64,000 nucleotides of DNA from Vampirovibrionales bacterium (GTDB lineage Bacteria; Cyanobacteriota; Vampirovibrionia; Vampirovibrionales; Vampirovibrionaceae). This document shows positions 11,303 to 14,934 of this stretch, piece after piece. Below the pieces are notes generated by a model. The model did not search any database and was not told the DNA's origin. It was given only the letters and a program-made list of their open reading frames with translations. Location of the stretch: assembly GCA_029262635.1 (NCBI GenBank), contig JAJCZA010000005.1, positions 248,001 through 312,000 on the forward strand. The letters run 5' to 3'. The position numbers and the translations under genes were made by a program. How positions within the stretch are numbered: position 1 is the first letter of the stretch; each line of letters starts with the position of its first letter.

Positions 11303-12415
11303 TTGCTAAAAGCCGGAATCGTTGGACTCCCTAACGTCGGAAAATCCACTCTGTTTAATGCCCTAACCTCATCTTATCAGGCCGAGAGCGCTAACTACCC
11401 TTTTTGCACCATCGAACCCAACATCGGTATCGTCAAGGTGCCAGACACTCGGCTTCAATCGTTGGTCACTATCGTCAATCAGGTAGGCCGTTGCGAAAAG
11501 GTTACCCCGGCCGCCTTTGAGTTCATGGATATTGCGGGACTCGTCAAAGGAGCCAGCAAGGGCGAAGGCTTAGGCAATCAATTTTTAGCAAACATCCGGG
11601 AAGTGGACGCCATTGTCCACGTAGTCCGATGCTTTGAGGATGACGACATTACCCACGTAGAAGGTACTGTTGACCCGATTAGAGATCTTGAAACCATCTA
11701 CATCGAGCTTTGCATGGCCGATGCCACTTCACTACAAAAACGCATTGAGAAACTAAAAAAGCAGGCCAAAGCGCAGGACAAGGACGCCATGGCCGATCTC
11801 GCCCTATTTGAAAAAATTAAACCGATTATTGACGAAGGGGGGGTGGTTCGTCGGAATAACTTGAATGAGGACGAAATCAAACGGCTGGATCAAGCTCAAC
11901 TCCTCAGCGTTAAACCCATGCTCTATGCCGCGAACCTTTCTGAAGCCGAGCTAACCGACCCCGGCAATAACCCACATTACAATCATTTGGTAAAACATGC
12001 TCAAGACGAAGGGCGGTTGGTTGTACCCATCTGCGCCCAAATCGAGGCCGAGCTCACCCAGCTTGAAGACGACGAACGCGCTTCCTACCTAGAAAGCCTC
12101 GGCGTCAAAACCTCTGGCGTGGACCAACTGATTAAAGCCTCCTTTGATACGCTGGGTTTAATCAACTATTTTACCGCCGGCGTAAAAGAAGTTCGGGCCT
12201 GGCCATTTGAGAGAGGACTGACCGCTCCGCAATGCGCAGGCATTATCCATACCGATTTTGAAAAGGGCTTTATCCGGGCCGAAGTGACGGCATTTAAAGA
12301 TTATGTGGCCTGCGCCGGTGAAAAAGTAGCTAAGGAGAAGGGCCTCACTCGCCTTGAAGGCAAAGAATACCTCATGCAAGATGGTGACGTTGTCCACTTC
12401 CGTTTCAACGTCTAG
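11303..12415 (+). CDS. ychF: Redox-regulated ATPase YchF
   Basis: YchF is an Obg-related universally conserved P-loop protein that binds ribosomes and hydrolyses ATP. The 370-residue product has G1 GLPNVGKST, the [18 protein letters not shown]3 region, a coiled-coil insert around residues 130-170, and YAANLSEAE. The last carries NxxE in place of the NKxD guanine-specificity motif, the change that makes YchF prefer ATP. The C-terminal TGS-like domain ends [12 protein letters not shown]. The start is TTG at 11303 with GGAG 9 bases before it; TTG is supported because the conserved N-terminus ([10 protein letters not shown]) begins directly there. Confidence 0.96.
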
Positions 12416-12461
12416 GCCGATACAACTGACTTTGTTTTAGGGGCTTTAGACATATAAAACA

Positions 12462-12498
12462 AAAGACCCCATAGCTTTTTAAGCCCTATGGGATCTTT
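12462..12498. terminator. Shared terminator-like hairpin after ychF
   Basis: AAAGACCCCATAG pairs with CTATGGGATCTTT with a single C-A mismatch and a T-rich loop. It sits between the convergent ychF and the small secreted-protein gene and may serve both. Confidence 0.6.
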
Positions 12499-12519
12499 CA
12501 TTGATTCTATGTATTCGTT

Positions 12520-12780
12520 CTATTTGCCTGTTCGATAGCCTTTTTTGTAGCCTTCTTTTTCATTGGCGCTCATTCCGCCATAACCATCTCTTTTGGCTTG
12601 GCCTTGTGTATAATTTTTACTTGCGGCCGCACCCTTCTTTTGTGCCGCATTATAACGCTGTTGAGCCTGCTTTTTTTCAGCGGCACTCATATCAGATTGT
12701 CCAAACTGTTGCTGAGCGAAAGCTGGAGCAGCAGAAGCAATAACACTCAAAACAAGGGCGAAACTCAGTATATATTTCAT
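12520..12780 (-). CDS. Small exported protein, unknown function
   Basis: An 86-residue protein with a clear signal peptide (MKYILSFALVLSVIASAAPAFA, cleavage expected after AFA). The mature part of about 64 residues is hydrophilic and rich in Gln, Lys, Gly and Ala, with two similar motifs, MSAAEKKQAQQRY and MSANEKEGYKKGY, suggesting an internal duplication of a short charged helix. AAGGA lies 7 bases upstream of the ATG at 12780; the TTG six bases earlier is not needed. Not recognised as a named family. Confidence 0.7.
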   Translation of the reverse strand: MKYILSFALVLSVIASAAPAFAQQQFGQSDMSAAEKKQAQQRYNAAQKKGAAASKNYTQGQAKRDGYGGMSANEKEGYKKGYRTGK

Positions 12781-12896
12781 CGTCAAATCCTTTTCTATTA
12801 TTTATTATGAATAACCGGTCTTCATTCCGTTCAGGGATTCTATTATAAACCCCGAACTATTTTGGATTCTAAACGAAACGATCGAAAAACATCAAT

Positions 12897-12961
12897 TAGC
12901 CTTTAGGCTATTGCTCGACCCTGAACTTTGAGGCATGTTAATCTATCTACCCTAAGGTAGA
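12897..12961. repeat. Two short dyads upstream of the Cys-rich peptide
   Basis: Two small inverted repeats share one design: TAGCC-TTTA-GGCTA (12897-12910) and TCTACC-CTAA-GGTAGA (12946-12961). They lie 115 and 51 bases before the ATG at 13012 and could be operator sites or small hairpins in the leader. Confidence 0.35.
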
Positions 12962-13011
12962 AAGGACCATAAAAAAGTAAATAAAAGAAAGAAACAGGGA
13001 GATTAACTCAA

Positions 13012-13176
13012 ATGAAAAAAGCGTTCATTATTATTGCCATTGCATCCCTTGCTATTGGCTATTTTTCTATGTCGTCTAACACACCCAAATGTAATGCCGG
13101 TGGTGGCTCTTTGGACTGTATTCACTGCACATCCAACTGTTGTGATGGTGACGGCAATTGTACTGAGTGTCCCTAA
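13012..13176 (+). CDS. Cys-rich small exported peptide (54 aa)
   Basis: A 54-codon gene. The N-terminus MKKAFIIIAIASLAIGYFS is a signal peptide or single membrane anchor. The remainder of about 34 residues holds seven cysteines in 27 positions (C27, C36, C39, C43, C44, C50, C53), ending CIHCTSNCCDGDGNCTECP. GGGAG lies 10 bases before the ATG, and a strong terminator follows 43 bases after the stop, so the gene has a complete expression unit. The cysteine density suggests a disulphide-bonded or metal-binding peptide outside the cytoplasm. It is not recognised. A bacteriocin-like, metal-handling or adhesion role are all open. Confidence 0.65.
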   Translation: MKKAFIIIAIASLAIGYFSMSSNTPKCNAGGGSLDCIHCTSNCCDGDGNCTECP

Positions 13177-13218
13177 AAGAAGGGTTATAAAAGACTCTTT
13201 TAAAATTAAATTTCACAA

Positions 13219-13256
13219 AAAGAGACGGTTCCTGATTAAGTTTGAGCCGTCTCTTT
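13219..13256. terminator. Terminator after the Cys-rich peptide
   Basis: AAAGAGACGG pairs perfectly with CCGTCTCTTT, extended by three more pairs including one G-U, with T-rich flanks on both strands. It ends the 54-aa gene and may also stop transcripts from the minus strand. Confidence 0.8.
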
Positions 13257-13265
13257 TATTTATAT

Positions 13266-13514
13266 CTAAAGGGCACAACCGCAGGCGGCATCTCCCACCA
13301 GACCGAGCTCCAAGCCCGTAATGGAAGTATCCTCTTTGGCATTTGTATAAGTATAAGTGACTCGGCCTGTACCATTGCCTTTTGCCGGATCCTTTTCACA
13401 AGTCACTTCATTTGACGACTCAAAATTAACAGAACAAAACAATTCACAAATAACAAGCCTAAGCCGTCCAACGCAATCGAGGATCCCGATGAAGGGGTCG
13501 AGAATCGCCCACAA
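13266..13514 (-). CDS. Doubtful Cys-containing ORF, possibly broken
   Basis: An 82-codon frame that can only start with TTG and has no Shine-Dalgarno. Its last 45 residues look protein-like (TCEKDPAKGNGTGRVTYTYT, ending GDAACGCAL), with six cysteines overall. It overlaps the downstream end of the 74-codon frame at 13459-13683 by 56 bases. It may be the 3' half of a gene broken by a frameshift, or chance. Not recognised. Confidence 0.25.
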   Translation of the reverse strand: MWAILDPFIGILDCVGRLRLVICELFCSVNFESSNEVTCEKDPAKGNGTGRVTYTYTNAKEDTSITGLELGLVGDAACGCAL

Positions 13515-13683
13515 ATTCTTCCCACCAAGAAACGGGTGATAAAGGTTTATTCATTTCTCTTCTCGCCATATAATAGGGCCAATAATCACTCGAAGGTTGT
13601 GGGCGACTCAAGGGCGGGGGCGCCAAAGGTCGTCTATGATTTAAATTTTGATAAGCCATCGTATTGTTATACATCGTCATCAA
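13459..13683 (-). CDS. Doubtful Pro/Arg-rich small ORF
   Basis: A 74-codon frame beginning with ATG ATG ACG ATG. The product is rich in Pro, Arg, Tyr and Trp (RRPLAPPPLSRPQPSSDYWP). There is no evident Shine-Dalgarno or family match. It could be a real small gene, or the 5' part of a gene continuing in the frame at 13266-13514. Confidence 0.3.
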   Translation of the reverse strand: MMTMYNNTMAYQNLNHRRPLAPPPLSRPQPSSDYWPYYMARREMNKPLSPVSWWEEFVGDSRPLHRDPRLRWTA

Positions 13684-13827
13684 CCATTCAATTTGTTTTG
13701 TTGTTATAGAAGAATCTTAGTGTATTATACACATTATCTTTATCACTGTTTCTCTTAAAACAACCGGTTCTTTAAAATTGCCTTTTTAATCCCAATTTTT
13801 TACTCCTCTTCTTTCTCTTCTTCTTTT

Positions 13828-13856
13828 TTGATTAAAAAACACCTTTTCCTTACAAT
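13828..13856 (+). promoter_or_regulatory. Sigma-70 type promoter of tdh-kbl
   Basis: TTGATT (13828-13833) and TACAAT (13851-13856) are separated by exactly 17 bases, 49 bases before the tdh ATG. A long C/T tract lies just upstream. The gap 13684-13827 shows nothing else. Confidence 0.7.
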
Positions 13857-13905
13857 AGACAGGTTATTCAATGGGATTACCAGAAAAGGTGGATAGGATC
13901 TTTAA

Positions 13906-14934
13906 ATGAAAGCCATCCAAAAACCATCCGCCGAGGCGGGATTTAAATTAATCGAAGCGGAAAAACCCGTTATCGGGCCCGATGATGTCCTGATAAAAGT
14001 TTCTACCGCCTCCATTTGTGGTACGGACCTCCACATCACTCAATGGGATCAGTGGAGTGCATCCCGTATCAAGCCGCCTCTCATTTATGGCCATGAATTT
14101 TGCGGCATCATCTCCGAAATCGGAAAAAATGTGGAAAACTACCACGTGGGGGACTACGTTTCCGCCGAAATGCATCTGCCATGCCGAACATGCTACCAAT
14201 GCATGACCGGTCATTTCCACATCTGCGAAAACTGTAAAATCTTTGGCATTGACCTCAACGGATGCTTTGCCGAATTCGTGAAAATCCCTCAATGGCAGTT
14301 AGTCAGAATTCCAAAAACCATTTCGCCTGAATACGGCGCATGTCTAGACTCTCTGGGAAACGCCGTTCATGCGGTTTCCAAAGGAGAGGTCTCCGGAAAG
14401 ACTGTCCTCATCACGGGCTGTGGCCCGGTAGGTCTGTTCGCCATTAAAGTCGCCAAAGCACTGGGAGCCACTCGAGTCTTCGCTTCCGATATCTCCCCCT
14501 ACCGCATGGAAATGGCTCATAAAGCCCAAGCGGATCAAGTGTTCGACGCCTCCAAGGTCACCGTTTCCGACGAAGTCAAAAAACTGACCAAAGGGCGCGG
14601 CGTGGACGTTGTCTTGGAAATGTCCGGTAGCTCTATTGCCATTAAAGATGCATTCAAAGCCTTGCGCCTAGCTGGCACTCTGGTCATGTTCGGGATTTGC
14701 GGATCACCCGTCGAACTGAACCTAAACGAAGACATCATTTTTAAGGAAACACGTATCATTGGCTGCAACGGTCGAGAAATTTTTAAGACCTGGTATCTGA
14801 TGCTGGAACTTTTAGAATCGGGCCAGCTGGATATTGATTTTATCATCACCCACCAGTTTCCGCTGGAGGCGTTCGGCAAGGCCATTGAACTCATCGCCAC
14901 CGGCAACAGCGGCAAAGTAATTCTGACGCCCTAA
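13906..14934 (+). CDS. tdh: L-threonine 3-dehydrogenase (zinc MDR family)
   Basis: Oxidises L-threonine to 2-amino-3-ketobutyrate with NAD. The 342-residue medium-chain dehydrogenase has the catalytic zinc ligands in SICGTDLHI and GHEFCG, the four structural zinc cysteines in CRTCYQCMTGHFHIC and the Rossmann motif GCGPVGLFAIKVAKALGA. The N-terminal TQWDQWS segment and overall length favour TDH over other sugar or alcohol dehydrogenases. The next gene, 40 bases downstream, is kbl, the standard partner in the tdh-kbl operon, which makes the call secure. AGGA lies 7 bases before the ATG. Confidence 0.92.
   Translation: MKAIQKPSAEAGFKLIEAEKPVIGPDDVLIKVSTASICGTDLHITQWDQWSASRIKPPLIYGHEFCGIISEIGKNVENYHVGDYVSAEMHLPCRTCYQCMTGHFHICENCKIFGIDLNGCFAEFVKIPQWQLVRIPKTISPEYGACLDSLGNAVHAVSKGEVSGKTVLITGCGPVGLFAIKVAKALGATRVFASDISPYRMEMAHKAQADQVFDASKVTVSDEVKKLTKGRGVDVVLEMSGSSIAIKDAFKALRLAGTLVMFGICGSPVELNLNEDIIFKETRIIGCNGREIFKTWYLMLELLESGQLDIDFIITHQFPLEAFGKAIELIATGNSGKVILTP

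Follow-up and report, generated by a model that had tools for sequence, protein, structure and literature searches.

Bacterial metallothioneins and small Zn-ribbon-like proteins of the CxxC...CxxC type are short and Cys-dense and carry paired CxxC motifs. Secreted peptides of the knottin or defensin type have a signal peptide, a short Cys-rich mature part, and a CC pair. RiPP precursors rich in Cys, for example the SCIFF peptides, are about 50 residues long with a Cys-rich C-terminal part. In these respects all three resemble the predicted product of P0001, a small gene in the window, which is the 64-kb stretch of Vampirovibrionales DNA analysed here. P0001 looks like a real, unusual, and isolated small gene, whose translation and export we infer from its sequence; beyond the cell membrane, its product probably either binds metal ions or forms disulfides. 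The features of the locus are as follows.

12461 to 12498, unstranded: weaker hairpin, possible terminator between the convergent ychF and P0002 genes (by reading).
12520 to 12780, minus strand: P0002, an 86-residue, Cys-free protein rich in Lys, Gln, Ala, and Gly, with a predicted cleavable signal peptide (ORF, codon score).
12897 to 12910, unstranded: dyad TAGCCTTTAGGCTA, possible operator (dyad count; not above chance).
12947 to 12960, unstranded: dyad CTACCCTAAGGTAG, with a half-site in common with the first (dyad count; not above chance).
12997 to 13001, plus strand: ribosome-site-like GGGAG, with the ATG 10 nt downstream (by reading).
13012 to 13176, plus strand: P0001, a 54-residue Cys-rich mini-protein, predicted to be exported or membrane-anchored (ORF, chance tests, homologue searches).
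13217 to 13261, plus strand: strong hairpin with a T-rich tail, a predicted terminator usable from the minus strand as well (folding).

The P0001 ORF consists of 54 codons and a stop. Its N-terminus has a KK pair followed by a 15-residue hydrophobic run (A4-F18), and the hydrophobic 12-mer has a mean of 2.96. Seven cysteines, at positions 27, 36, 39, 43, 44, 50, and 53, lie within 27 residues, forming two CxxC motifs (C36/C39 and C50/C53) spaced by 10 residues as CxxC-x10-CxxC, in addition to C27 and the CC pair C43-C44. Signal cleavage is possible after G16 or S21 according to the -3/-1 rule applied by eye, both sites being weak, and the predicted mature part contains an odd number of cysteines. 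The preliminary description of a small signal-bearing gene with seven cysteines was accurate in its coordinates and Cys count, and the GGGAG site and the strong terminator are both present. The terminator hairpin has a folding energy of -23.1 kcal/mol and a z of -5.1 on the plus strand, with equal stability in 0 of 200 shuffles; read from the minus strand its z is -2.5. A consensus terminator scan does not list this hairpin, probably because its loop exceeds the length permitted by that scan.

Chance was assessed with 2000 dinucleotide shuffles of positions 12416-13905, counting ORFs in which cysteines come after an N-terminus that is basic and hydrophobic, criteria that were fixed post hoc with P0001 already known. 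Such ORFs with at least 4, 5, 6, and 7 cysteines arose in 8, 3, 0, and 0 of the 2000 shuffles, respectively. P0001 is the sole signal-like ORF with at least six cysteines in the window, and none of 30 whole-window shuffles gave one. The codon usage is equivocal: the score of 0.047 bits per codon lies at percentile 3 of in-frame and percentile 98 of out-of-frame 54-codon pieces, and the Cys-rich tail alone, at -0.26 bits per codon, is similar to non-coding frames. Codon usage neither establishes nor rules out that P0001 is coding.

P0001 lies between ychF (11303-12415, plus strand) and a zinc-type dehydrogenase gene (13906-14934, plus strand; Pfam), which we take to be tdh because a kbl-like aminotransferase-fold gene comes next. 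The 1490 bp between ychF and tdh hold P0002 on the minus strand, P0001 on the plus strand, and further small minus-strand ORFs. This gap is variable, since in the seven relatives that keep ychF beside tdh the distance is roughly 176, 135, 672, and 657 bp (L034, L035, L036, and L037) and roughly 101, 101, and 1793 bp (L039, L040, and L042); in six other ychF loci no tdh start was found within the stretch compared, which in one case is only 329 bp long. Different small ORFs occupy the gap (12416-13905 in the window) in different relatives. Judged from the genomes compared, only this lineage has the small genes of the gap, whether it gained them or kept them. An 82-codon ORF with a TTG start (13266-13514, minus strand) faces P0001, and the hairpin between them is shared. 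The last 48 codons of this ORF are coding-like (0.21 bits per codon), it has a sub-threshold TIG match, and in 194 genomes it finds nothing except itself. It may be what is left of a larger exported protein. A 74-codon ORF rich in Pro, Tyr, and Trp (13459-13683, minus strand), located before tdh, overlaps it in another frame and has no family match and a weak codon score. Ten neighbouring ORFs were scanned; they include YchF, the zinc-type dehydrogenase, a class I/II aminotransferase-fold enzyme, and DUF58, DUF4870, and GGDEF-HD proteins, while three have no family and one has a single match below the cut-off. Among these ten, no metal-transport or metal-regulator gene is adjacent, and no immunity, transporter, processing, or RiPP-modifying gene was recognised.

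The predicted exported protein on the opposite strand was also correctly described: P0002 has a clear predicted signal peptide with a classical cleavage site by eye (AFA|QQQ) and a codon score of 0.24 bits. At an E value of 0.001 it matches nothing but itself among 386 phylum genomes; two matches with E values of 0.005-0.006 among 58 relatives are partial and lie inside longer frames. Its Pfam and NCBIfam matches are all below cut-off (best E 0.0006, with 20 of the 150 bits needed). The two genes are divergent and 231 bp apart, and neither is conserved; their treatment as one functional locus is unproven. The two similar dyads noted between them are present and have the half-site TA[GC]CCT in common, but their frequency is no higher than chance: there are five short dyads, whereas the shuffles have 2.7 on average and 17% of them reach as many, and at least one dyad with 6-bp arms occurs in 47% of shuffles. 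The region between the genes folds no better than shuffles (z -0.78). The region of the weaker hairpin at 12461-12498 has a fold z of -1.7, its minimum-energy fold being a different pairing.

A search for P0001 in 194 genomes, consisting of its own and 193 relatives, found no homologue in the relatives. Matches with E values up to 1 occurred in 44 genomes (its own included), the best non-self E value being 0.009, and among the 22 loci taken from those listed (L001-L022, self included) no non-self locus has a small signal-bearing Cys-rich ORF. Two other matches in its own genome are weak; one falls in a CxxC-repeat stretch within a 425-residue frame, and the other is noise. Pfam and NCBIfam each gave 0 families at E values up to 10, in searches whose filters discard weak matches in proteins so short, and there was no PHROG family or PDB sequence match. 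A peptide-pattern scan of genome contigs and searches of viral contigs and phages found no convincing match; a plasmid match with an E value of 10 is noise. The exact seven-Cys spacing occurs in at least 117 stretches of the genome contigs. Among those listed, 65 loci (67 ORFs) read without an internal stop, and six of these 67 ORFs have at most 10 cysteines per 28 residues, none of them like P0001. A six-Cys scan matched 123 of 382 class genomes, its backwards control matched some as well, and the matches listed are mostly readings of TGC/TGT repeats. One reading at L178, CVNCITNCCDTRFICTCC, looked like P0001, but its frame has no signal-bearing start. No description of the peptide was found in the literature searched, including passages of PMC4451040.

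Since none of the relatives searched carries P0001, its Cys pattern has no counterpart for comparison, and the idea that the pattern is conserved is not supported. The preliminary description named two observations that would together count against it, the lack of a conserved Cys pattern in relatives and the lack of transcription or translation, and the first of them formally holds. P0001 is a predicted lineage-restricted orphan small gene of a kind already known, the small exported Cys-rich orphans; orphan here means that it was not found outside its genus-level lineage, its own genus label appearing only for itself among the matches listed.

The Cys-rich tail is atypical of exported proteins here because those of the window are Cys-poor. 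The six proteins that a crude predictor classes as exported and soluble contain 4 cysteines in 2031 residues (0.20 per 100 residues), one of these cysteines being a likely lipid anchor, compared with 1.0 per 100 residues in predicted cytosolic proteins. The opinion that Cys-rich exported peptides are uncommon in this setting is supported by this difference and by the lack of a second ORF of this type in the window. Standard oxidative folding is not evident from the gene content of the genome, which is 95.9% complete and has no match to VKOR, DsbB, or Thioredoxin_4 (DsbA-like). The same families matched 3, 6, and 9 of 14 control genomes, respectively. VKOR was found in none of 18 genomes of its own order (G000-G017) and in 3 of the 29 genomes searched, all three more distant than that order. 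The search for disulfide machinery covered these three families. Given no match to the three, several disulfides are a less obvious way than metal to hold the fold.

Tentatively, we favour a reading in which P0001 is a thiolate peptide, either tethered to the membrane or secreted, and binds a soft metal ion. The Sec route would insert P0001 with its N-terminus inside. Under the positive-inside rule, a basic N-terminus before a hydrophobic run leaves the following tail facing outwards, and the tail of P0001 is therefore predicted to face outwards, given its KK before the 15-residue run. The Cys-rich tail of 28 residues would then be on the outer side of the cytoplasmic membrane, where it would stay anchored unless signal peptidase frees it by cutting after residue 16 or 21. 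The two CxxC pairs, together with C27 and C43-C44, would in this reading supply the thiolates that hold the metal ion (Zn, Cu, or similar), and P0001 would be a small peptide that binds or buffers metal outside the cytoplasm. This metal-binding role is favoured by the odd Cys number, the two CxxC motifs, and the missing oxidases, as well as by the complete gene architecture and an ORF type unexpected by chance. It also gains from the Cys core, which is modelled with some confidence: the single-sequence model has a mean pLDDT of 67.8 and a pTM of 0.40, with block means of about 81 in the Cys core and low values in the rest. On the other hand, the model is low overall and matches nothing in Foldseek or VIA. 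The role is further weakened by the lack of a homologue and hence of Cys conservation, by codon usage in the tail that is not gene-like, by the weak cleavage site, and by the absence of a metal-transport or regulator neighbour. Zn-ribbon-like sites are usually cytoplasmic, which also argues against it, as does the chance that the genome has other thioredoxin-fold oxidants, such as PF01323, beyond the three families covered. The particular case of an exported thiolate-cluster mini-protein whose cysteines are held by metal or by an unrecognised oxidant, in an order apparently without VKOR and a genome without DsbB or Thioredoxin_4, is quite unlikely.

It is somewhat unlikely, though credible, that P0001 is instead a secreted disulfide-bonded peptide, either a knotted mini-protein or an antimicrobial or antagonistic peptide acting on other cells, with six of its seven cysteines paired and oxidised by oxygen or by an oxidant outside those searched. 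A signal-like N-terminus, dense cysteines, and a short mature part all suit such a peptide, and without C39 the order C-C-CC-C-C is like that of inhibitor knots. Against this, the Cys number is odd, the genome matches none of the three oxidant families, no immunity, transporter, or processing gene was recognised alongside, and curated peptide families and solved structures gave no match.

Equally probable is a young or decaying lineage-specific ORF, perhaps transcribed and of unsettled function, in a ychF-tdh gap that gathers short-lived small ORFs. The absence of P0001 from all 193 relatives, the orphan status of the adjoining small ORFs, the 101 to 1793 bp range of the gap in seven relatives, and the weak codon signal are all consistent with recent origin or decay. 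However, the gene signals are complete with a strong terminator, the combination of a signal and seven cysteines was not produced by shuffling, and the apparent youth may reflect sparse sampling, with no congener among the genomes compared. It is very improbable that the locus is a small non-coding RNA or a toxin-antitoxin-like unit of type I with the short membrane peptide as toxin. The short hydrophobic ORF, the terminator, and a weak minus-strand Rfam match to the OrzO-P antitoxin would fit. However, this match, one of two from Rfam, both sub-threshold, scores 23.7 bits (E 0.48), far below the gathering score of 60, and sits on the terminator hairpin, and type I toxins do not usually have such a Cys-rich tail.

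If untranslated, P0001 is another orphan small gene. If translated, its product becomes a candidate peptide, metal-binding or antagonistic, from a lineage that has been little studied, and it would allow a concrete test of how a bacterium without the three searched disulfide-machinery families keeps so Cys-dense a peptide on the outside of its membrane. Compared with metallothioneins and Zn-ribbon-like proteins, P0001 differs in its signal-like N-terminus, whereas those proteins are cytoplasmic without a signal, and it matches no curated Pfam or NCBIfam family. In contrast to SCIFF-type RiPP precursors, it has a Sec-like N-terminus and no NCBIfam match, and no modifying enzyme was recognised among the ten ORFs beside it. 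Knottin- or defensin-like peptides, as secreted disulfide-rich peptides, are expected to have an even mature Cys number, whereas P0001 has seven cysteines, no fold or sequence match, and a host without a match to the three families tested. The host without the tested disulfide machinery is the twist in what is otherwise a known kind of small gene.
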